From IMG/VR virus record IMGVR_UViG_3300046476_000200, positions 1 through 30,076 of that record: 30,076 bases of DNA; one strand, 5' to 3'. A program made the translations under genes and the position numbers. Source of the stretch: a virus. The notes beneath the pieces are model-generated. The model did not search any database, was not told the DNA's origin, and was given only the letters and a program-made list of their open reading frames with translations. Each line of letters begins with the position of its first letter. The first letter of the stretch is position 1. Below are positions 16,207 through 24,334 of the stretch, piece after piece.

Positions 16207-16392
16207 TTGACACACAAAAAGCCCTTTACGTTGCGATTGGACGACGAATTGCGCGAGCGCGCTGAGCGAGTCGCACGGAGCCAGGAGCGCACGCTCACGT
16301 CGCTGATGACGTACGCGCTTGCCCGTGAAGTGGCTGAAATAGAGGCCAACACGGCCCGCAAGCCCGTCACGGATCAACCCCGGGCAGCCTGA
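16207..16392 (+). CDS. Ribbon-helix-helix regulator
   Basis: 61 residues from TTG 16207, preceded by AGGA 7 nt upstream; a TTG at 16174 is possible but has no ribosome-binding site. KKPFTLRLDDELRERAERVA forms the beta strand and first helix, and ERTLTSLMTYALAREVAEIE the second, the Arc/CopG pattern. It is divergent from the recombination operon and probably represses it and itself through the CATACA repeats (inference). The last 26 nt overlap the convergent gene at 16367. Confidence 0.7.
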   Translation: MTHKKPFTLRLDDELRERAERVARSQERTLTSLMTYALAREVAEIEANTARKPVTDQPRAA

Positions 16393-16696
16393 GCCACTCC
16401 GGCACCGGCACGTCGGGCTGGGGCACGGCGCGCGGGTCGTCGCGGATGGCGGCTGAGAAGTCGAATGGCCGTGTTGGCGGCGGATTTGTGTTTGTGCTAA
16501 CCTGAAGACCGGTGGGATGCTTTCCACACCCCACCAGCCTCCGGCGGGCTACAGACGGATCGCGAATACGATCCTGACCCGTTTGTGGCGATGTGCTAGC
16601 ATCGTTTTCTCCCACGGTTGCGCCGGTCAGGTGATTCTGGCCGGCGTTTCCGTTTGTAGAGCAGTCCCCGAACAATTCCATCTGACGCGCGCTCAC
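16367..16696 (-). CDS. Hypothetical protein after RusA
   Basis: About 109 residues from GTG 16696, which overlaps the RusA stop (GTGA); GTG 16711 in the same frame is possible. Starts SARQMELFGDC and ends with a Pro-rich segment (DDPRAVPQPDVPVPEWLRLP). Low complexity in the middle (Asn/Thr/Gly). Supported mainly by the operon overlap style and by filling a 300-nt gap that otherwise has no gene. Function unknown. Confidence 0.45.
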   Translation of the reverse strand: MSARQMELFGDCSTNGNAGQNHLTGATVGENDASTSPQTGQDRIRDPSVARRRLVGCGKHPTGLQVSTNTNPPPTRPFDFSAAIRDDPRAVPQPDVPVPEWLRLPGVDP

Positions 16697-17184
16697 GCCG
16701 GCGGTATCCACGTCAGGCCCGGCTTCGTCCGCGTCACCGTCCGCCCCGCCCCCTTGGCCCCCTTGGCCCCGCGTGGCTTCGCCGCCCGCCGCACCGCGCC
16801 CATCTCCGGCAGCGCCCAGATCGCCACCATCACGTCCTCGCGCGCGACGGGACGCACGATCAACTCATGCAGGTTCCCATCGTTGCTGATGAGGCCTACG
16901 GTTTCGCATAAGTCGAGAGTTGCCTTAGCCCAATTATCTGAATCACGGCGGCTGATCGGCACCTCGATCAGCGCGTTGAACCGGCAATCCACGGGCGGGA
17001 TGCCGCACAACTGTCGCCGCAGTTCCCAGCCCGCCGAGAATGCCCACGCGCGGTAAGCGGGCGAGCGGACGCGCGGCTGGCCCGGTGCCCTGATCCACAG
17101 CGCGTTGAGGCTGGGACAGCGCGGCATCGTCACCACCCGATCGGGCGTGGCGTCTGACCAGTGCGCCGTGCCGCCGCCGCTCAC
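16693..17184 (-). CDS. RusA-like Holliday junction resolvase
   Basis: 163 residues from GTG 17184 (GTGA overlap with the methyltransferase stop); the longer frame is a shadow. Core pattern: PSLNALW at 24-30, YRAWAF at about 44-49, then RRDSDNWAKATLDLCETVGL with Asp81, Asp83, Asn84, Lys87 and Asp91, and SNDGNL with Asp102, matching the D-x-DN-x2-K and downstream acidic residues of RusA (about 120 residues in E. coli). It would resolve branched DNA before packaging. The C-terminal 40 residues are Lys/Arg/Gly-rich and unlike RusA; they could bind DNA. Confidence 0.82.
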   Translation of the reverse strand: MSGGGTAHWSDATPDRVVTMPRCPSLNALWIRAPGQPRVRSPAYRAWAFSAGWELRRQLCGIPPVDCRFNALIEVPISRRDSDNWAKATLDLCETVGLISNDGNLHELIVRPVAREDVMVAIWALPEMGAVRRAAKPRGAKGAKGAGRTVTRTKPGLTWIPPA

Positions 17185-17834
17185 GCGAACAGATCCGCGA
17201 TGACGGCGGCCTTGGGCGCGGGACGCTGAACGAACAGGTCGGGCTGCCGATACGCCTGCTCGATGCGGCGGCACGCGATGTCGAAGTATCGTGGCTCTAT
17301 CTCGATTCCGATGAAGCGGCGGCCGAGCCGCGCGCAGGCGACGCCTGTCGTGCCGCTGCCCATGAACGGATCGAGGATGGTGCCCTTGGTCCGCTCCACC
17401 AGTTCGGCCATGAGGTTTTGGTTTTTCTCGGTCGGGTGGCCGCTTGCCTCGATGCCCGTCAAACCCGGAAAGACGACATAATGAGACATGACGCGGCTTG
17501 CGCGCTTTCGCCCGTCAGCATGGAACTCGAACACGGGTTCGTAATTGTCCGGCCGGTTGCTGTTTGAGCGATGCCATACGTGAACGGCAACGAGGGGGCG
17601 CGGAACGCGCGGTCTCGCCATCTCGGTCCAGAACACCAGCCAATGCACCGCGCAAGGCTCCATTCGGAAGGTTGCGCGGGCGGCCTCAATACCATCGGTA
17701 AAATGGCCCGCGCCGTTCGGATACGGTGGATCGGTCACCACGGCATCGACCGGGCCAAGCATCGGCAGCACGTCGCGGCAGTCGCCGAGGTAGAGCGTGG
17801 CATCCCCGATCCGCTCGACGCGCGGCGCGCTCAC
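17181..17834 (-). CDS. DNA amino-methyltransferase (N6-A or N4-C)
   Basis: 217 residues from GTG 17834, chosen because it overlaps the zinc-ribbon stop (GTGA). Catalytic motif DPPY at 35-38 precedes the SAM-binding motif DPFMGSGTTG at 155-164, the beta-class order. HPTEKN at 133-138 and GRRFIGIEIEPRYFDIACRR at about 171-190 are typical. The target-recognition part between them is short (about 90 residues), so specificity cannot be inferred. No restriction nuclease is adjacent, so it is an orphan methylase, probably for evasion of host restriction or for gene control. It follows a zinc-ribbon mini-protein and a radical SAM gene. Confidence 0.9.
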   Translation of the reverse strand: MSAPRVERIGDATLYLGDCRDVLPMLGPVDAVVTDPPYPNGAGHFTDGIEAARATFRMEPCAVHWLVFWTEMARPRVPRPLVAVHVWHRSNSNRPDNYEPVFEFHADGRKRASRVMSHYVVFPGLTGIEASGHPTEKNQNLMAELVERTKGTILDPFMGSGTTGVACARLGRRFIGIEIEPRYFDIACRRIEQAYRQPDLFVQRPAPKAAVIADLFA

Positions 17835-18007
17835 CGGGCGGGTTCCTTGACGGGGTATTTCCCGCCGTTCGCATCCGCGATTTGTGTCAGGCAGACGCCG
17901 CAATAAGGCCGCCACCACTGGATAAACGACGCGTGTCCCTGACACCTGACGCACGTCAGGTCATGGAACGCCGAACGGCCTGAAGCCACGAACGGCGGGC
18001 CGCTCAT
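17831..18007 (-). CDS. 58-residue zinc-ribbon mini-protein
   Basis: Short gene with ATGA overlap to the radical SAM stop and GTGA overlap to the methyltransferase start. Residues: MSGPPFVASGRSAFHDLTCV, then RCQGHASFIQWW, then PYCGVC. CxxC at 19-22 and CxxC at 36-39 form a classic zinc-ribbon knuckle pair. The doubly overlapping position and the two knuckles make it a convincing gene. It may be an adaptor for a nucleic-acid enzyme; this is inference. Confidence 0.75.
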   Translation of the reverse strand: MSGPPFVASGRSAFHDLTCVRCQGHASFIQWWRPYCGVCLTQIADANGGKYPVKEPAR

Positions 18008-18996
18008 GACGCGTCCGCCAGTTCAATCTGCCTTGTGTCGGGATACCGGTCGCGTTTTGCGTTGGCGTCGTAAGCGGAGAACGGCACCGCCCGGTAAAGT
18101 CCCGTGATCGCCCACCGTTGGAACTGCTTCAGGCCCCGGTAACGGGCCGGATCGGTGGCGCGGCAGTCGAAGACCATGGGGTATGGCTCGATGCCACGCT
18201 CCACCATCCGCTCGAAACGATGATGGATGCGCTCCCACGTCTCGTGCTTGTCCCAGCCCACCAGCATGTAAGCGCGCAGATGCCGGGCGGGCACGCCGGC
18301 CGCCTCCAGCATGGCCACGCCCCGGAAGAACACGCCTTCGTCCTTGAGGTTGTCCCATGCCGTGTAAAGACGGCGCTCCGAAAACCTGTCGTCGCGATAC
18401 TCCACCGTCGCCAGCGCCTCGGCTGCTTCCGGCGACAGGTGGCGCACGTTGATGCCCTGGTTCAGACAGACCTTGAAATCGCCGTCGCGGATTTCGGCGA
18501 TGCGATCACGCCATTCCGGGGCGCCGAAGAAATCGTTGTCCAGCAAATGCAATTTCCTGGGATGTTCGGGGCCGCGCCATATCTCCGCGATGCGGTTGGT
18601 CGAGCGCGCTTTGCCCTCTTTGGCGGGCACCACACAGAACTTGCACGACAGGCGGCAGCCGCGTTGCGTGAAGCCGATGGACGGCTCGAACGCCGGATAC
18701 AGTGAATAGTCGTAATGCTCATATGGGCCGATCTCGTCTTCGACCGTGCGCTGGCTGGCCGTACCGGTTCCACCCAGGATCGCGCCCGGCCACGCGGCGA
18801 GGAAGCGTGCGATCTTTGGCGCGCTGAATTTGAAGATGGTTGAGCCGTAGACGCGATCGTAGTCGCCCTCGAACAGATCGCGCTCGGCCTGGTGCGTGAA
18901 CGTCACTTCGTCGCCGCGCGCCTTGTGCCAGTGCGCCAGCTTCATCAGCGCCAGGTTCGGGAGAGACCCATCAAGTTGCGTCAACCGGACGCGCAT
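18004..18996 (-). CDS. Radical SAM enzyme
   Basis: 330 residues from ATG 18996. The radical SAM cluster motif CxxxCxxC is at Cys114, Cys118 and Cys121 (QRGCRLSCKFC), a [4Fe-4S] site that generates the 5'-deoxyadenosyl radical. LHLLDNDFFG near 149-158 fits a following barrel strand. Residues 1-100 (MRVRLTQLDGSLPNLALMKL, YDRVYGSTIFKFSAP) look like a degenerate cobalamin-binding-type fold, as in MiaB- or B12-type relatives, but no DxHxxG motif was seen. Reaction and substrate are unknown. Neighbours (methyltransferase, zinc-ribbon, PP-loop protein) suggest nucleic-acid modification. Confidence 0.82.
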   Translation of the reverse strand: MRVRLTQLDGSLPNLALMKLAHWHKARGDEVTFTHQAERDLFEGDYDRVYGSTIFKFSAPKIARFLAAWPGAILGGTGTASQRTVEDEIGPYEHYDYSLYPAFEPSIGFTQRGCRLSCKFCVVPAKEGKARSTNRIAEIWRGPEHPRKLHLLDNDFFGAPEWRDRIAEIRDGDFKVCLNQGINVRHLSPEAAEALATVEYRDDRFSERRLYTAWDNLKDEGVFFRGVAMLEAAGVPARHLRAYMLVGWDKHETWERIHHRFERMVERGIEPYPMVFDCRATDPARYRGLKQFQRWAITGLYRAVPFSAYDANAKRDRYPDTRQIELADAS

Positions 18997-19069
18997 CAAA
19001 AGACCCCGGCGCCTGGGGAGGTTGTCGCGCGGCGCCGGGGGATCGTTGGCGCCAATTCCGTTGCTCGTC

Positions 19070-19156
19070 TCACTGCAACAGCGCCCAGAGCGCCCAGATC
19101 CACATGCCGACCACGACGGCGGCGACGGCGCGAGCGGCGAGGGGGAGGTGGCTCAT
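19070..19156 (-). CDS. 28-residue single-helix membrane peptide
   Basis: Short frame starting MSHLPLAARAVAAVVVGMWI and ending WALWALLQ, one hydrophobic helix. GAGAGGA lies about 10 nt before the ATG. It is in the leftward operon between the PP-loop gene and the radical SAM gene. A gene this short is uncertain; the ribosome-binding site and clean hydrophobic sequence are the only support. Confidence 0.45.
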   Translation of the reverse strand: MSHLPLAARAVAAVVVGMWIWALWALLQ

Positions 19157-19256
19157 GCGACAAGATCCTCTCGTCTGAAAGTAGCTGGCGAAAAGTATTG
19201 CGATATGCAGCCAGCACGCGCAAAGACGCCGCCGTGGTCAATAAAGGACAGCGATA

Positions 19257-19466
19257 ATGAAATGGCGCATTGACTATTCCGACGAAACCGGCGCGGGCGA
19301 TTTCGATCCGGTCGAGTATGAAGCCCGCGATTTGGCCGAACGAGAGGCGCGTGAACGGCTCGCGAGCGCCGATATGCCATGGGCGGTCAGGGCGCGGCTG
19401 TTCGCCGTGACGAACGATGGTGAGCCCGCCGACGACCAAAGCGGCGCCGTCACGATCAGGAAGTAG
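19257..19466 (+). CDS. Small acidic protein on the opposite strand of the leftward operon
   Basis: 69 residues with AAAGGA 8 nt before the ATG. Sequence KWRIDYSDETGAGDFDPVEY, then EARDLAEREARERLASADMP, then ARLFAVTNDGEPADDQSGAV. Strongly acidic, codon usage like the other genes, and it ends 5 nt before the end of the convergent PP-loop gene. No family recognised; small acidic phage proteins sometimes act as DNA mimics or inhibitors, which is speculation here. No clear promoter was found upstream. Confidence 0.6.
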   Translation: MKWRIDYSDETGAGDFDPVEYEARDLAEREARERLASADMPWAVRARLFAVTNDGEPADDQSGAVTIRK

Positions 19467-19471
19467 CGGCA

Positions 19472-20329
19472 TCATACGCCGCACCCCGCGTCTTCGCAGG
19501 CCAGAGCCTTCTCGTTCAAATCGAACGGGAGGGTGCCCTGGTCCCTGACCACGCGCGCCATGGTCGCGTAGTCCTCGCGGTCGATGCGAAACGTCGCGCC
19601 GCTCTTTTCGCGGGTGCGGGTTTGCTTCGCGTTGACTTCCATGTTTTCCCACCACGTCATGCGGGCGGGATGGTCCTGATACATGCGTGAGAGCGCGGCG
19701 CGGCTCTTGAGCATGCAGCCGTCGCAATTGCCTTCCCACGGGCCGGACAATCGTAAATCGAACGGCTGCGCTTTCCAGAACCGCAGCACGTCGATTTCTT
19801 CGATCCCCGCCGTGGCGAGCGGGCAAATCGTCGGGTAGCCGTCCTTTTTCTGCTTCGCCGGATCGGTGGCTTTATTGACCCTGGCCGGTTCGTCGGCGCG
19901 CAGACCAATAACGTTCAGCCATTTCCGCCATCCGCGCGTGGCGATGATGAAGCGCCGCATCGTGCGGATTTTCAGTTCGACCGTGCAAAAGCGCGTGACC
20001 GGGTTGGGCAGGAACTGCCGCGCCCGCACCACCGCTTCGAACGGTTCGCCGTCCCGGGCCGCGCTGTTGTGCGAGACCTCGCGAAATGTCGGTCCATCGT
20101 CGCGCGCGTATTCCAGCCAAATGATCGGCGCATTCCACGCCGCCCCGCAGTCGCGCACGAAGTCGAGCGTGGCGGGCATCTCGCGCCCGGTGTTCGCGAA
20201 GCAGACCACCACATCTTCGGGAAGTCGCCCGCCGTGCGCCTGGAGGATGCGGTGCAGCATGTACGCCGACGTGCGCCCGCCTGAGAACGAGATCACCGCC
20301 GGCCCATGGATCAGGAACGGATCGCTCAT
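19472..20329 (-). CDS. PP-loop ATP pyrophosphatase, PAPS-reductase-like
   Basis: 285 residues. The PP-loop SFSGGRTSAYM lies at 14-24. The family activates sulfate or nucleic-acid targets through an adenylate. Candidate metal or Fe-S ligands: Cys115 (RFC), Cys169 (TICP), Cys202 and Cys205 (NCDGC), Cys278 and Cys283. It resembles phage 'phosphoadenosine phosphosulfate reductase' proteins whose substrate is unknown, and more distantly DndC/TtcA-type thiolation enzymes. The ATG overlaps the upstream stop (ATGA). Radical SAM and methyltransferase neighbours favour DNA or RNA modification over sulfur assimilation. Confidence 0.82.
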   Translation of the reverse strand: MSDPFLIHGPAVISFSGGRTSAYMLHRILQAHGGRLPEDVVVCFANTGREMPATLDFVRDCGAAWNAPIIWLEYARDDGPTFREVSHNSAARDGEPFEAVVRARQFLPNPVTRFCTVELKIRTMRRFIIATRGWRKWLNVIGLRADEPARVNKATDPAKQKKDGYPTICPLATAGIEEIDVLRFWKAQPFDLRLSGPWEGNCDGCMLKSRAALSRMYQDHPARMTWWENMEVNAKQTRTREKSGATFRIDREDYATMARVVRDQGTLPFDLNEKALACEDAGCGV

Positions 20330-20541
20330 CGCCAGCCGGCCGGGTGATCAGGTCCGGCCTCCCGCGTTGGACATTTTCGCGGGATCGGCGCCCCGGACTT
20401 TCCGCGTCCTCGCCGCGCGGCGTTTTCGGTTTTGCTCTGGCTTTGCCGATCGTACGCCATTTCCCGTTGCCGGCGCATGACGCGCCCGACGACGCGGGCC
20501 ACCAACTCGCCGATCGGGATGAAGTCGCGGAGCGGGCTCAT
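20326..20541 (-). CDS. Small basic hypothetical protein
   Basis: 71 residues from ATG 20541 (ATGA overlap with the upstream stop). Short helix (IGELVARVVGRVMRRQREMA) then a Lys/Arg-rich disordered tail. Possibly nucleic-acid binding; no family recognised. Confidence 0.55.
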   Translation of the reverse strand: MSPLRDFIPIGELVARVVGRVMRRQREMAYDRQSQSKTENAARRGRGKSGAPIPRKCPTREAGPDHPAGWR

Positions 20542-20729
20542 GCCGCCCGCCGCCCGTATCGTTTCGACCAGCACGCGAGGCACCACGCGGCGTCAGCCAC
20601 GCCCGCTTCCACCGCTTTGTCCCGGCGTGTGAACAGGTCGATGGCGTCCAGCCGCGACGGCTCCACGCCCGGCCGCAGCGCGAAAACCTCCGCCGAGCCG
20701 CACGCGCAGGACGGGAACAACGCGGCCAC
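20538..20729 (-). CDS. Small Cys-containing protein, zinc-binding candidate
   Basis: 63 residues from GTG 20729, directly after the Cro-like stop. Cys pairs CACGSAEVFALRPG near the N-terminus and WCLACW near residue 51 form CxC and CxxC knuckles, consistent with one zinc site. Resembles phage zinc-ribbon mini-proteins; function unknown. Confidence 0.6.
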   Translation of the reverse strand: MAALFPSCACGSAEVFALRPGVEPSRLDAIDLFTRRDKAVEAGVADAAWCLACWSKRYGRRAA

Positions 20730-20936
20730 CTAGTCGGCCAGCGCGGCGGCGATGAACGCGCGAATGCGTGCCCGCGTCGCCCGCCTCGGCTCGCGACCGT
20801 TTCTCAGATCCAGCACCAGCACGGGGTCGCCCATGACGGCGAGGCCGAACGTCGAGGCGGACATACCGGTGGCGCGCAAGAACAACTCGACGCTGGCCAG
20901 GATAGGATCGGTATCGCTGTCGAGGTCTGGGCACAT
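20730..20936 (-). CDS. Cro-like HTH regulator
   Basis: 68 residues. SVELFLRATGMSASTFGLAV then MGDPVLVLDLRNGREPRRAT then RARIRAFIAA is the short XRE-like fold found in phage Cro-type and accessory regulators of alphaproteobacteria (helix-turn-helix at about 21-45). It is the first gene of the leftward early operon and divergent from a CI-like gene, the layout of a Cro/CI switch. The upstream dyad at 20946-20965 is its probable target or that of its partner (inference). Confidence 0.72.
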   Translation of the reverse strand: MCPDLDSDTDPILASVELFLRATGMSASTFGLAVMGDPVLVLDLRNGREPRRATRARIRAFIAAALAD

Positions 20937-20945
20937 CGCCCTATT

Positions 20946-20965
20946 CCATAGGATTCAGCCTATGG
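20946..20965. promoter_or_regulatory. Operator dyad in the divergent immunity region
   Basis: CCATAGG-ATTCAG-CCTATGG is a perfect 7-6-7 inverted repeat just upstream of the Cro-like gene. Related half-sites lie nearby (ATCCTA at 20983-20988, TCCTA at 21010-21014, TAGGAT at 21024-21029). On the minus strand TTGACG (20973-20968) could be a -35 box whose spacer and -10 region overlap this dyad, but the spacing to TATGGA is short (15 nt). Confidence 0.65.
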
Positions 20966-21000
20966 CGTCAAGCCCGGCGATCATCCTACGCCAATCCCTC

Positions 21001-21029
21001 TTGGCAATTTCCTATGACCGGATTAGGAT
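21001..21029 (+). promoter_or_regulatory. Rightward promoter for the CI-like gene
   Basis: TTGGCA (21001-21006), 17-nt spacer, TAGGAT (21024-21029). The -10 box is also an operator half-site. The predicted start (about 21036) coincides with the ATG at 21037, so the mRNA may be leaderless, as for lambda cI from PRM. The same AGGA could alternatively serve as a Shine-Dalgarno for a transcript begun further upstream. Confidence 0.55.
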
Positions 21030-21036
21030 GCCCGCG

Positions 21037-21470
21037 ATGGCCGATCCTGACAGCGCGAGGGAATACCTCCGGGCGTCCCTGCCCAGTGGACGGAGGCGTC
21101 GCGCGCGTTGAGCCGCAACCCGACTTACGTGCAGCAGTACATCAGGCGGGGCAAACCACAATATCTGTTCGACGCCGACCGGCGCATTCTGGTCCGGCTG
21201 TATAAGCTCGACCCGGAGAAGTTACGCCCCCCGGTCAAGCGAGCGCGCCGCCTCGGCCGCCCGCCGGAGAATGTCGGCGGTCAGCATCTCGTAGACGCCA
21301 ACATCGCGCAGATATTGCTCGACACCCCGCAGGCGGCGCCGCTGCTCCGCGCTTTCGCCGGCATGTCCCCAAGCGATCGCCGCGCCATTCTTCAGCTTGC
21401 CAGGTCCATCCCGCGCGCCGCCAACGATCCGCCCGTCGATCCGGCGCGCGCGGTCGCGATAACCGTCTAA
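21037..21470 (+). pseudogene. CI-like repressor gene, apparently split by a -1 frameshift
   Basis: The frame from ATG 21037 (MADPDSAREYLRASLP) ends at a TGA at 21111 after 24 codons. The -1 frame, open from 21051, carries the rest of the HTH: QWTEASRALSRNPTYVQQYI, RRGKPQYLFDADRRILVRLY. Joined, they match N-termini of alphaproteobacterial phage repressors; separately, the second frame (usable only from TTG 21108, TTGA overlap) lacks the first helices. The break lies near 21076-21087 at short C runs. The C-terminus (LLDTPQAAPLLRAFAGMSPS) has no S24 peptidase. It could be an assembly error, a true loss of immunity, or translational coupling at TTGA. Confidence 0.6.
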
Positions 21471-21537
21471 AGACCAAATTTCTCCCAAGTGTGAACTCCC
21501 CTTCACCATTGATCGGAGCCGACGAATTTCGTCCCGT

Positions 21538-21556
21538 GCGTAGGATTAGCCTACGC
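21538..21556. promoter_or_regulatory. Second operator dyad upstream of the rightward operon
   Basis: GCGTAGG-ATTAG-CCTACGC, a perfect 7-5-7 inverted repeat sharing the TAGGATT...CCTA core with the dyad at 20946. It lies just upstream of the promoter at 21562, and a related half-site TCCTA sits at 21583-21587. This fits coordinated control of both operons by one repressor. Confidence 0.65.
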
Positions 21557-21561
21557 GCCGC

Positions 21562-21591
21562 TTGACCTTTATATAGGCAAAGTCCTACGAT
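21562..21591 (+). promoter_or_regulatory. Rightward promoter for the accessory operon
   Basis: TTGACC (21562-21567), 18-nt spacer, TACGAT (21586-21591), predicting a start near 21598 and a short leader before the gene at 21621. It is flanked by the dyad operator. The remaining gap, 21471-21537, shows no other signal. Confidence 0.55.
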
Positions 21592-21620
21592 GCCTCGAGC
21601 AACACGGCTTGAGGCTTCCA

Positions 21621-22073
21621 ATGTCATCCACGACGAGACTGTCCCCGTCCCCGCCGGTCGGTCATTTATCCGACACTGTCCGCGACATTACCTTACCCGC
21701 CACCCCTGGCAAGTCGCGTCTTGTATCGGAGCCGTTATCATTACACTGTGATTGCGAGGACGGTTGGGTCTGGCGAGGCCGTCGCGGCCCCAACGATCCA
21801 GATGGCGACATGGAAAGATGCGAGGCGCCGGGTTGCGAGTCTGGTGTCATACACATGCGCTGTGACACGCCCGGTTGCGCCGGCGAGGCGACGGCGGTCG
21901 TGGACGGCGAATATTTCTGCGAGCCGTGCGCGGCACACGTTCGGGCCGAGGCGGACCTCGCGGCGATCGAGGCGTTGACGGACCATTGCCGGGCCAGGGA
22001 GCACGCCATCCCCTTCACCGTGCTCTACGGCGCCGTGGCCGCCGTCCAACGCCTACGGGGCGAACGGACGTGA
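21621..22073 (+). CDS. Multi-zinc-finger protein
   Basis: 150 residues from ATG 21621, with GAGG 6 nt upstream; TTG 21609 would add four residues. After a disordered N-terminus come several Cys pairs: CDCEDGW, CEAPGCESG, CDTPGCAG and YFCEPCAAH, the DnaJ-like or rubredoxin-like arrangement of two zinc sites. A helical tail follows (RAEADLAAIEALTDHCRARE). First gene of the rightward accessory operon. Possible nucleic-acid or chaperone-like role; no family certain. Confidence 0.7.
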   Translation: MSSTTRLSPSPPVGHLSDTVRDITLPATPGKSRLVSEPLSLHCDCEDGWVWRGRRGPNDPDGDMERCEAPGCESGVIHMRCDTPGCAGEATAVVDGEYFCEPCAAHVRAEADLAAIEALTDHCRAREHAIPFTVLYGAVAAVQRLRGERT

Positions 22074-22267
22074 GTGAGCAGGCGGACATCGAGCAACTGG
22101 CCGACGAAGTCTCGCCGTGGTCCGCGTCGATCGCCACCCGGCTGCGGGCCGTCGCGTGGCGCGTGGGGCGGCTGGAGCGGGCGGCTGATGAGATCGTCGA
22201 TGACGCGAGGCAGACGGCCCTGGCCCGGCACGGCGCCGTCCTGGCCCTCGTCAGGCGGGTTGGCTGA
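22070..22267 (+). CDS. Small helical hypothetical protein
   Basis: 65 residues from GTG 22070, which overlaps the preceding stop (GTGA). All-helical (ASIATRLRAVAWRVGRLERA, ADEIVDDARQTALARHGAVL), coiled-coil-like. Unknown; part of the accessory operon. Confidence 0.6.
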   Translation: MSEQADIEQLADEVSPWSASIATRLRAVAWRVGRLERAADEIVDDARQTALARHGAVLALVRRVG

Positions 22268-22268
22268 C

Positions 22269-22391
22269 ATGACCGGGTGGTTGTGCGTCTTCACGACGCA
22301 GCACAAATGGCAATGGCATTTCAACGCCGGGGACGCGGGGATTTACCAATGCCATCGCTGCAAAACGATATCGGTCGGGTCGCCGCGATGA
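22269..22391 (+). CDS. 40-residue zinc-knuckle mini-protein
   Basis: Short gene starting 1 nt after the previous stop. MTGWLCVFTTQHKWQWHFNA then GIYQCHRCKTISVG: one Cys near the N-terminus, HKWQWH, and a CHRC knuckle. The spacing resembles very small phage proteins of the form C...HKW...CxRC. The stop overlaps the next ATG (ATGA). Confidence 0.65.
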   Translation: MTGWLCVFTTQHKWQWHFNAGDAGIYQCHRCKTISVGSPR

Positions 22392-22609
22392 CGGCTTACG
22401 AGCAACGCCGCGACGCCATGGCCCGCATTTTGGCGGCGTCTCTCATGGGTTTGGTGAGAGACCCGACCGGCGCGAAATTACCGGAAGATTGCTGGCGGCA
22501 GATGGTGCCGAAGGCCAACGCGATCCTGTTCATCGTGTCGCGTGGCGTCGAGCACGAGACCGCCGGCAAGGCGCTGGAGCACGATCTTTTCCCGGAGGCG
22601 GCGGAGTGA
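22388..22609 (+). CDS. Small hypothetical protein
   Basis: 73 residues from ATG 22388 (ATGA overlap). YEQRRDAMARILAASLMGLV then PEDCWRQMVPKANAILFIVS, helical, mildly amphipathic. Unknown. Confidence 0.6.
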   Translation: MTAYEQRRDAMARILAASLMGLVRDPTGAKLPEDCWRQMVPKANAILFIVSRGVEHETAGKALEHDLFPEAAE

Positions 22610-22618
22610 TGTGGCTCG

Positions 22619-22909
22619 ATGCCCCGGACGGACGGCGGTAACGGCCGGGCCGCCCAGTACCACCCGCTCGACGCGCGGGCGATGGAGCGGGCGTGCCGGA
22701 AGCTGGCCGCCGATCTGCGCCGGGAATACGCCGCGGGCTGGGGGCCGGTGCCGCTGACCTGCCCGGACGGCAACCGCTTCGGTGGGCGCGGCAACACCAT
22801 CAGCCGCCTGGAGGCCGCCGATAGCCTCGAATTACAGGCTGACAGATGGGAAGCGGAATGGCGAACGGGCGTCCTGAACACGACCGACCGGCCCAAAATC
22901 GGGTGGTGA
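22619..22909 (+). CDS. Small hypothetical protein
   Basis: 96 residues from ATG 22619. The start is not well set: GGAG lies 12 nt upstream, and the coupled start at the previous stop (GTGATG, 22606) would yield only 11 codons. Main body MERACRKLAADLRREYAAGW, CPDGNRFGGRGNTISRLEAA, DSLELQADRWEAEWRTGV. Unknown. The stop overlaps the next ATG (TGATG). Confidence 0.55.
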   Translation: MPRTDGGNGRAAQYHPLDARAMERACRKLAADLRREYAAGWGPVPLTCPDGNRFGGRGNTISRLEAADSLELQADRWEAEWRTGVLNTTDRPKIGW

Positions 22910-23210
22910 TGGCGTGCCAGCATGCCAGCATGCCAGCATGCCAGCATGCCACCACGGCATCATGCGGCGGGAGGCGTCTCGGTGGATGCCACGATCCGAA
23001 GGCTGGGCTTCTTGCCCTCGGCGCGCTCACGTTTTGCTTTGTGGTATGCCGGAGCACTGCCGCGCCAACCCAGCTTGAGCGCCAACCGCCACTGGGTTAC
23101 CGGCCCCGAGCCCCATTCTGCGCGTCTGGCTGCGGAGTTGGGTCGACTGGTGGATCGAGCGGGCGAGGGACGTGGGCCTGCACCCGTTCCCCGACGAACA
23201 AACCGATTGA
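22909..23210 (+). pseudogene. Small membrane protein gene with a probable -1 frameshift
   Basis: ATG 22909 overlaps the previous stop (TGATG) and opens a frame through ACQHASMPACQHATTA (from tandem repeats) and a hydrophobic helix KAGLLALGALTFCFVV, then LERQPPLGYRP. Around 23095-23115 the likely frame moves -1: ILRVWLRSWVDWWIERARDV, GLHPFPDEQTD and a stop at 23208-23210, where third-codon GC is about 85 %, much higher than the other frames. The downstream frame has no ATG, GTG or TTG start of its own. A missing base in CCCC runs, a real disruption or a programmed frameshift are the options. An antisense frame at 22960-23232 is less likely. Confidence 0.45.
22915..22954 (+). repeat. 8-bp tandem repeat (TGCCAGCA) x4 plus a variant
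   Basis: Four perfect copies of TGCCAGCA followed by TGCCACCA, just inside the coding start at 22909. Each gain or loss of one unit would shift the reading frame, the pattern of a slipped-strand phase-variation tract. The opposite strand reads TGCTGGCA. Confidence 0.8.
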
Positions 23211-23265
23211 CACGCGACGCCTTATGCACCACTTATGATGCATGAACGCATCATGGAAAACTCCC

Positions 23266-23397
23266 ATGCGACGGCTGTCGGTCAGCCTCACCGAAATACA
23301 AATGAAGCGGCTGTGGATGATGGCCGAGGCTTACGGCATTTCGGTCGGCGAGGCGCTGCGGCGCATTCTCGACCGGGACCAGTACAGAGAGAAATGA
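23266..23397 (+). CDS. 43-residue ribbon-helix-helix mini-regulator
   Basis: Short gene. MRRLSVSLTEIQMKRLWMMA then EAYGISVGEALRRILDRDQY: a strand (RLSVSLT) followed by two helices, the Arc/CopG fold. GGA lies about 8 nt before the ATG. Overlapping longer frames here are low-complexity shadows. It may regulate the accessory operon or itself. Confidence 0.65.
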   Translation: MRRLSVSLTEIQMKRLWMMAEAYGISVGEALRRILDRDQYREK

Positions 23398-23405
23398 CAG
23401 AAGGC

Positions 23406-23441
23406 GGGCCGGGCGGTGCAGCAAACACCGTGATCCGGCCC
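23406..23441 (+). other. Two-tier hairpin after the mini-regulator gene
   Basis: Outer stem GGGCCGG (23406-23412) with CCGGCCC (23435-23441), inner stem CGGTG (23414-23418) with CACCG (23426-23430), loop CAGCAAA. No U tract follows. Could be a terminator-like, regulatory or RNase-processed RNA element. The rest of the gap, 23442-23592, shows no supported gene; a TTG-started in-frame extension of the next gene is possible but would bury its signal peptide. Confidence 0.45.
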
Positions 23442-23592
23442 TGACCAACACCGAGAAGGACCCCCGGCATTGGCTTACCGCTACATAATTCCCCCGTTCG
23501 CCGCCGTCACCCACGGCGAAACACGATCTCCCGTGTCCGCGAACGGCCGCCCCACCGCCGCGCTGATGAGCCGGGGCATGGAGATTGTCACC

Positions 23593-23730
23593 ATGAGGTT
23601 TTTTGTTCTGGCCGCGATGTTCGCGGCGTCCATCGTCGTCGCGATGCCGCCGAAGGCGCACGCCGGCAGCTGCACCACCACCTGCTACGGGTCGGGTAGT
23701 TACCGGACCTGCAACACGTACTGCTATTGA
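23593..23730 (+). CDS. Secreted Cys-rich small peptide
   Basis: 45 residues. MRFFVLAAMFAASIVVAMPP then KAHAGSCTTTCYGSGSYRTC then NTYCY. Residues 1-24 form a signal peptide with likely cleavage after AHA, leaving a mature peptide of about 21 residues with four Cys in a CxxxC...CxxxC pattern, suited to two disulphides. Similar short secreted Cys peptides are familiar from rhizobial genomes. GGAG 9 nt upstream favours this ATG over an upstream one at 23578. A lysogenic-conversion or periplasmic role is possible (inference). Confidence 0.65.
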   Translation: MRFFVLAAMFAASIVVAMPPKAHAGSCTTTCYGSGSYRTCNTYCY

Positions 23731-23786
23731 CCGGGATGGCCCGGCCGGGTGAGGGCCGGGCAGCCTCTCAACTCAGGATGAAGTTG

Positions 23787-23996
23787 ATGCAAGCGGATCT
23801 CGACCTCAGACGCAAACAGATCGCCTGGGAAACCCCGCGCAACGTGGCCATCGTCGCGGGTGCCGTGGTCGCCATCTCGGCGGCGATCGGTGGCTGGACC
23901 GGCTACCAGATCGGCCGGTTTCCATCCCCCGCTGCGACGCAGATCGTCCTACCACCCGGCACCGTCATTCAGGTGCCCCAGGCACCGAAGCCATGA
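23787..23996 (+). CDS. Small single-pass membrane protein
   Basis: 69 residues from ATG 23787, chosen for AGGA 8 nt upstream; ATG 23778 and 23736 and TTG 23727 are in frame. DLDLRRKQIAWETPRNVAIV then AGAVVAISAAIGGWTGYQIG: a charged N-terminus, one membrane helix at about 17-40, and a Pro-rich end. Small rhizobial prophage proteins of this form are common; a holin-like role is possible but unproven. Confidence 0.6.
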   Translation: MQADLDLRRKQIAWETPRNVAIVAGAVVAISAAIGGWTGYQIGRFPSPAATQIVLPPGTVIQVPQAPKP

Positions 23997-24334
23997 CCAG
24001 CACCGACCGCCGCCGCCTCGCCGCCATCCTCGGGATGCTGGGCTCCGAGTTCGACGGCGAGCGCGCCGCCGCCGGGCTTCAGGCCGAGGCGTTTCGCAAG
24101 CGCCACGGGCTGACGTGGGAGCAGATGCTGGCGCCCCCGCCGCCCCAGGCCCCGGCAGAGCCCGATCCCTACGCGCACGCTCCGCCGCCGCCGGCGTCCC
24201 CGTTCGCCGATCATGAAAGGCGATGGGCCGACCCGGCATGGCGCCGTCATAATGCTTATGAAAGGGGCAAGGGGTTTGCCGTCGCCGCCGGGGCACTTGG
24301 GGTTGGTTTGGCGGCGGTGATGCACGTCTTCTGA
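23993..24334 (+). CDS. Hypothetical protein with C-terminal hydrophobic helix
   Basis: 113 residues, ATGA overlap with the previous stop. Residues 1-45 (RRLAAILGMLGSEFDGERAA, LQAEAFRKRHGLTWEQMLA) are a compact helical unit that I associate with phage and prophage proteins of alphaproteobacteria. A Pro-rich linker (PPPPQAPAEPDPYAHAPPPP) and a hydrophobic end (GFAVAAGALGVGLAAVM, about 94-110) follow. Last gene of the rightward operon; its stop is 4 nt from the convergent late gene. Confidence 0.6.
   Translation: MTSTDRRRLAAILGMLGSEFDGERAAAGLQAEAFRKRHGLTWEQMLAPPPPQAPAEPDPYAHAPPPPASPFADHERRWADPAWRRHNAYERGKGFAVAAGALGVGLAAVMHVF

Follow-up and report, generated by a model that had tools for sequence, protein, structure and literature searches.

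The IMG/VR virus record IMGVR_UViG_3300046476_000200, a stretch of 30,076 bases analysed here as a whole (the window, to which all positions refer), carries on its minus strand a gene for a radical S-adenosylmethionine (SAM) enzyme at 18004..18996 and, upstream of it, a gene for a PP-loop protein at 19472..20329. The radical SAM enzyme belongs to phrog_9298 (phage radical SAM domain protein; E 8e-49), and the PP-loop protein to phrog_424 (E 2.7e-54), a phage family named "phosphoadenosine phosphosulfate (PAPS) reductase" and called NinC in some records. In phage loci the two kinds of genes stand next to each other more often than chance placement would produce, and different PP-loop subfamilies are found beside nearly the same radical SAM enzyme. 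The reading preferred here, tentatively and as a nearly even call, is that of an early, mosaic operon whose radical SAM and PP-loop genes belong together as a pair that recurs, can be exchanged and is not obligate, the other genes of the block being ordinary neighbours. The sequence-only reading of this DNA had joined the genes of the block into one nucleic acid modification route; the adjacency of the radical SAM and PP-loop genes agrees with part of that proposal, and the four-gene pathway is not supported.

Adjacency of radical SAM and PP-loop genes in phage loci

Linkage was counted in 181 radical-SAM loci, comprising viral contigs found by the radical SAM alone, two bacterial contigs, seven named phage records and the window, and in a control of 160 loci found by terminase sequence. 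In the alignment scans, the best 80 loci were kept of at least 543, 592, 572, 490 and 580 relatives. Left out of the count were L006, L010 and L029, which come from the contigs of L051, L069 and L003, and also L001, L026 and L027, each of which is either the window or a second stretch of a record already represented; the only radical SAM in the controls, L220, which is the same contig as L096, was counted as it fell. PP-loop genes were detected with an iterated profile, 8 of whose 10 seed proteins came from radical-SAM loci.

PP-loop genes are present in 30/181 radical-SAM loci versus 3/160 controls (Fisher p 1.7e-6), and all 30 are on the strand of the radical SAM. Thirteen of the 30 lie within 200 nucleotides (nt) of it, where 1.8 were expected and the maximum over 10,000 placements was 9; within 1300 nt the count is 24, against an expectation of 8.1 and a maximum of 16. 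The placement result, which concerns position within each locus, is independent of the control set. The gaps were taken between stop-to-stop frames and are therefore somewhat too small, alike for all families. Since seeds drawn mostly from radical-SAM loci could favour detection in those loci, the test was repeated with an unlinked seed: a profile built from 37 unlinked PP-loop proteins gave, after three rounds, 27/181 versus 3/160, with 11 of the 27 within 200 nt. Removal of the radical-SAM groups that had supplied any seed left 20/169 versus 3/160 (p 3e-4), with 11/20 within the same distance. Clustering at 35% identity divides the linked PP-loop proteins into 15 groups, and the pairing has therefore probably arisen repeatedly.

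The two genes may instead be independent cargo, that is, accessory genes gathering in the same exchangeable early region, with adjacency reflecting insertion hot-spots and no common pathway; we regard this explanation as quite possible, if somewhat doubtful. It is opposed by the size of the PP-loop excess, which exceeds that of seven other families combined. In the same loci these families, hand-picked by us from neighbour clusters, lie within 200 nt in 24/169 cases versus 13/30 for PP-loop genes (p 5e-4). When one value is taken per group of radical SAMs at 80% identity, the figures are 11/22 for PP-loop genes versus 21/131 for the others within 200 nt (p 9e-4) and 16/22 versus 57/131 within 1300 nt (p 0.02); the grouping (130 groups) covers close copies, repeats between scans not being matched by contig name. 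Also opposed to the cargo explanation are overlaps and near-zero gaps that recur from phage to phage with varying PP-loop subfamilies. In the gene map of L076, the radical SAM and PP-loop genes overlap directly, and that of L367 has an overlapping series of radical SAM, PP-loop and N6/N4 methyltransferase genes. The closest echo of the window's set is L081, with the order PP-loop, radical SAM, HNH, RusA-like and methyltransferase; the RusA-like label there comes from our own reading of the sequence and not from a profile.

The N6/N4 methyltransferases likewise show some adjacency excess, a point in favour of independent cargo, although it is weaker (10/57 within 200 nt, with 3.1 expected and a maximum of 10 over 2,000 placements). 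Other candidate partners were rejected. C5-cytosine methyltransferases are commoner in the controls (85/160) than in the radical-SAM loci (46/181) and are not clearly enriched next to the radical SAM (8 within 200 nt, expected 3.4, maximum 10). For HNH, helicase, SSB, YopX-like and VRR-nuclease genes, the 200-nt counts are never above the placement maxima.

Several observations weigh against the preferred reading. The sequence-only reading had named unlinked genes in related phages as part of what would refute it, and this is what most relatives show. In 151 of the 181 radical-SAM loci there is no PP-loop gene in the stretch covered, many loci being partial (23/181 are shorter than 6 kb); that most loci hold only one of the two genes is also what independent cargo would lead one to expect. 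The PP-loop subfamily of the window usually occurs without radical SAM, which was found in 0/80 of its loci (the best 80 of 580); L074, by contrast, has a PP-loop gene of this subfamily 148 nt from its radical SAM. Nor is there a radical SAM in any of the 8 records with the closest relatives of the window PP-loop protein, namely two named phages and six viral contigs, one of which is matched over just 54 residues. Radical SAM homologues occur in 14 named phage records, including LoVEphage, BKO1-TP3, NatCom_21982 and vir215; of 20 named phages that carry the L301-type PP-loop gene, none belongs to these 14. Before iteration, the unlinked seed gave only 12/181 versus 3/160 (p 0.04), with 3/12 within 200 nt. 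Over whole records, phrog_424 was matched in 11/50 radical-SAM records, one match being QueC-like, versus 3/50 controls; without the QueC-like match, the difference (10/50 versus 3/50, p 0.07) is not significant, and for IMG/VR records only it is 6/43 versus 3/50 (p 0.29). Moreover, the terminase-anchored controls sample the packaging region and not the early region, and no fusion of PP-loop and radical SAM was found among the examined loci.

The named phages with both genes are LoVEphage, BKO1-TP3, NatCom_21982 and Dulem virus 39, and they provide a short list for deciding the question by nucleoside analysis. The PP-loop matches include proteins that we take to be IbrA-like, for example at L343. 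In this single phage locus, two tandem radical SAM open reading frames (ORFs) of the phrog_9298 family occupy 9995-11689, and upstream of them stand what are presumably a PP-loop gene of the IbrA kind and a neighbour resembling ParB. On the bacterial side, besides two centres, the radical SAM alignment matched 1 of 752 sampled genomes (E 1e-20). In the bacterial match L456 (1237-3363, minus strand), the radical SAM is part of a 708-residue ORF that extends about 350 unassigned residues further at the N-terminus.

Exchange of genes among close relatives

The two closest relatives of the window, viral contigs L002 and L003, have radical SAM enzymes 95-97% identical to its own, and in the three phages the PP-loop gene just upstream of nearly the same radical SAM belongs to a different subfamily each time. 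In L002, the PP-loop gene is flanked by DNA that can be aligned to the window (19030-19169 and 20323-21039), and the gene between the aligned flanks encodes a 247-residue protein of a subfamily unlike that of the window. The 86-residue ORF that overlaps the window's PP-loop gene by ATGA (20326..20586, minus strand, no assigned function) has a near-identical copy upstream of this differing PP-loop gene. L003 lacks the PP-loop gene of the window and has a protein of the third subfamily, 260 residues long, about one gene further upstream; the order there is PP-loop gene, cytosine-methyltransferase-like ORF and radical SAM. Judging from these three phages, a small sample, the kind of gene is kept near the radical SAM while its actual representative is replaced. 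A "simply unlinked" reading had been suggested by a tblastn search with the window PP-loop protein, which found it in 0/16 relatives; it was overturned by the profile search, which found the other subfamilies in L002 and L003.

The remaining genes of the block fare differently, and a conserved four-gene unit is rejected on the strength of their loss or replacement in L002 and L003. The small ORF with CxxC motifs matched only L002 (93%) among the 16 first relatives, with no match in L003, and the methyltransferase gene of the window was found in neither. L002 lacks the window stretch 17165-17824, the methyltransferase region; its tblastn match is a 50% piece spanning residues 1-100 of the long methyltransferase ORF, which starts in an out-of-frame extension over the CxxC ORF. 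RusA is 95% identical to that of the window in L002 and 48% in L003. The region is thus visibly mosaic, with PP-loop, methyltransferase and CxxC genes replaced or missing in relatives whose radical SAM is 95-97% identical, and this mosaicism speaks for independent cargo as well. The methyltransferase, the CxxC ORF and RusA look like ordinary, interchangeable phage neighbours that are not part of the pair.

The two enzymes and their possible chemistry

The radical SAM protein has 330 residues from ATG, or 331 from an in-frame TTG at 18999. The CxxxCxxC motif noticed in it earlier is indeed present, at residues 115/119/122 counted from this TTG; C115, C119 and C122 occur in 78/78 aligned sequences and are the sole cysteines kept throughout. 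The Pfam model Radical_SAM (PF04055) scores only 16.0 bits, under its cut-off of 29.5. The structural model (predicted local distance difference test score, pLDDT, 94.3) consists of an N-terminal Rossmann-like domain and a radical SAM barrel. Because motif and fold are both present, the low PF04055 score is taken as divergence, and the model places the protein in the radical SAM superfamily. In its own ranking, Foldseek gave zero matches at E <= 0.001 for this model, and the fold was then revealed by VIA-align, whose 17 best rows all match radical SAM enzymes over the whole length (Z 13.4-19.6). When the alignment was compared with solved structures by profile search, it returned mainly designed PPR repeats and one radical SAM entry (E 0.0013); the PPR matches, in which no matched stretch passes on its own, are taken as spurious.

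The best fold match is AprD4 (Z 19.6, root-mean-square deviation 3.5 over 296 residues, nearly the whole length), and the others include MgmA, MiaB (Z 18.9), TsrM (Z 18.4) and RimO. For AprD4 and the cobalamin-type radical SAM enzymes MgmA, TsrM and OxsB, the likeness extends over the whole length at Z 15.3-19.6, although identity to the window protein is only 13-17%. The predicted fold of the N-terminal domain would be compatible with cobalamin-type enzymes; AprD4 itself is not known to use cobalamin. MiaB, RimO and MtaB have the same Rossmann-like N-terminal domain and barrel (Z 17.9-18.9). In a possible RNA route, the pair would modify host or phage tRNA through thiolation and a radical step, either to tune translation or to counter tRNA-cutting defences. 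We judge this improbable. The resemblance of the radical SAM model to MiaB and MtaB (Z 18.6-18.9) speaks for it, as does that of the PP-loop model to the tRNA thiolases NcsA (Z 10.8) and TtuA (Z 9.6). In MiaB and RimO, however, three cysteines of the N-terminal domain hold an auxiliary 4Fe-4S cluster that is their sulphur source. The window protein has no cysteine in residues 1-114, and no such position is a cysteine in as many as 8 of the 78 rows; the auxiliary cluster is therefore not expected, and any sulphur would have to come from elsewhere. There is also no room in the model for a TRAM domain, and the MiaB/RimO methylthiotransferase profile TIGR00089 scores 15.9 bits, far below its 251-bit cut-off. 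Since the auxiliary-cluster cysteines are absent and a TRAM domain has no room, MiaB-type chemistry is unlikely. The RNA route is further opposed by the best fold matches, which include enzymes acting on sugars, peptides and proteins, and by the content of the window, where a tRNA scan was empty and the neighbours are DNA genes.

A QueC/QueE route was considered and set aside as unlikely. A QueC-like ORF was seen in one radical-SAM record, but no QueE or QueC model is among the library matches of the window proteins. QueE structures match the radical SAM model at Z 9.4-9.9, mostly through the shared barrel. The phage in question has a phrog_9298 radical SAM together with a QueC-like PP-loop ORF, labelled from its sequence (L033/G027 31197-31301; L138 937-2070), and the QueC-like ORF of L033/G027 is possibly a 7-deazaguanine gene.

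The PP-loop protein (285 residues, SFSGGRTS) matches the Pfam model PAPS_reduct (PF01507) at 23.9 bits, narrowly above the cut-off of 22.5, and is matched by 398 of 50,697 phage records. Residues S16, G17, G18 and S21 of its SGGxxS PP-loop are invariant in 48 rows, and the protein can be assigned to the PP-loop/PAPS reductase-like superfamily. Its structural model (pLDDT 92.1) has adenosine phosphosulfate (APS)/PAPS reductases as best matches (Z 12.1) and is also similar to LarE (Z 10.7), besides the thiolases mentioned above; the profile search of its alignment against solved structures gave a best match of only E 0.043. These reductase matches would suit a role in auxiliary sulphur assimilation, with the PP-loop gene as CysH and the radical SAM unrelated, and viral cysH has been interpreted so in a Baltic virus survey (PMC9301287). 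We consider such a role very improbable, given that no NCBIfam model reaches its cut-off for the protein and that the gene lies in a replication/recombination operon. CysH ends in the catalytic motif ECG(I/L)H, and this motif is not present at the C-terminus of the window protein, which reads CEDAGCGV (C-x4-CGV). A C-terminal cysteine pair ending in CG or CT occurs in 68/79 complete proteins of the window type versus 6/28 complete radical-SAM-linked ones, and with so few linked proteins having it, the pair of cysteines is not a general feature of the radical SAM/PP-loop association. Genes of the PP-loop "cysH" kind are common among viral auxiliary genes, and at least one survey reads them as sulphur metabolism (PMC9301287). 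The recurrent pairing with many PP-loop subfamilies points to a role outside sulphur metabolism for at least some of them.

Three other cysteines, C115, C202 and C205 (the last two as C202-x2-C205), do not vary across ten proteins drawn from several subfamilies or across the 48 rows of the window's kind. They appear to resemble the three-cysteine 4Fe-4S site described in the PP-loop protein DndC (PMC10853773). TtcA, NcsA and TtuA are likewise Fe-S dependent PP-loop thiolases with such a site. No DndC model is found among the matches of the window PP-loop protein up to E 0.1, in a search that omits some weak matches, and no other Dnd proteins were recognised among the scanned window proteins. 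The nearest described case found is the radical SAM module of the Thermus phages Cumys and phiMa, likewise a phage radical SAM locus, for which the authors suggest that it may produce an unknown DNA modification; the partners there are a DUF483 protein and another unassigned protein, and a PAPS-reductase gene is reported in a different phage, Tsatsa (PMC11437467). A description of phage radical SAM with PAPS-reductase or PP-loop genes as a pair was not seen in the literature searched, which is no proof of absence.

The adjacency hints at a shared chemical modification by the pair, most likely of DNA or RNA. The PP-loop enzyme would use ATP to activate an oxygen of a carbonyl or phosphate group and pass on sulphur or another nucleophile, its three conserved cysteines being a probable Fe-S site, while the radical SAM enzyme would act on an unreactive carbon, either in the same target or in a neighbouring one. 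The predicted folds and the cysteines are consistent with such a sharing of tasks, with activated sulphur coming from the PP-loop enzyme and the attack on carbon from the radical SAM. The target would most likely be phage DNA or its nucleotides, protected in this way against host restriction, as judged solely from gene context. DNA is favoured only by the neighbour genes and the modest N6/N4 methyltransferase excess. A more far-reaching proposal is a new phage route to a hypermodified base, built from a mainly viral radical SAM family and an interchangeable PP-loop sulphur-transferase; sulphur would be delivered via the three-cysteine site, and the radical SAM enzyme, without the auxiliary cluster of known methylthiotransferases, would use it or a methyl group on carbon in phage DNA. 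We think this proposal unlikely.

Gene arrangement and neighbours in the window

The window encodes recognisable tailed-phage genes (portal, terminase, tail and DNA-ejection proteins) and, besides the RusA-like and DNA methyltransferase genes, D5-type primase, RecT-like and Gp157/Gam-like genes; tRNA and Rfam scans of it were both empty. Positions given earlier for the three located genes, the PP-loop gene, the radical SAM gene and a 58-residue ORF (17831..18007), are correct to within a codon, and the co-directionality claimed for the block holds: all of its genes are on the minus strand, the methyltransferase and RusA-like ORFs lying between the located genes and 16693. The chain of overlaps is also real, with ATGA at the junction of the radical SAM gene and the 58-residue ORF, GTGA between that ORF and the methyltransferase gene, and GTGA again between the methyltransferase and RusA genes. 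From the GTGA junctions, the likely starts are 17834 for the methyltransferase (17181..17834, 217 residues from GTG, overlapping the 58-residue ORF) and 17184 for RusA (16693..17184, 163 residues from GTG).

The methyltransferase is of the N6/N4 type (N6_N4_Mtase, PF01555, E 9.5e-20, 71.9 bits versus a cut-off of 26.7), and TDPPY in its translation bears out the DPPY class proposed for it. RusA is better described as a divergent RusA-like Holliday junction resolvase, an ordinary recombination gene, which matches phrog_34 (E 1.4e-8) and falls short of PF05866 (17.5 bits versus 22.8). The 58-residue ORF does contain two CxxC motifs; its zinc-ribbon label rests on these because profile searches gave no accepted match.

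The PP-loop gene stands outside the overlap chain, 475 nt from the radical SAM gene. The gap contains a 28-residue hydrophobic, membrane-peptide-like ORF (19070..19156, minus strand; MSHLPLAARAVAAVVVGMWIWALWALLQ) and an opposing ORF of 69 residues (19257-19466, plus strand). L002 and L003 also have the 28-residue ORF, even with a different PP-loop gene nearby. A simple consensus scan of the minus strand of 16300-21700 found zero terminator-like sites and one promoter-like site, a consensus match at 21007-20980; these results would be compatible with one transcription unit for the block genes.

Beyond the block, small plus-strand ORFs at 21108-24334 face the early operon, with promoter-like sites on both strands near 21000; six of these ORFs that were scanned had zero Pfam matches at E 0.01. 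Among ORFs overlapping on both strands lies a perfect 8-base tandem repeat, TGCCAGCA, at 22915-22951 (4.6 copies, score 74).

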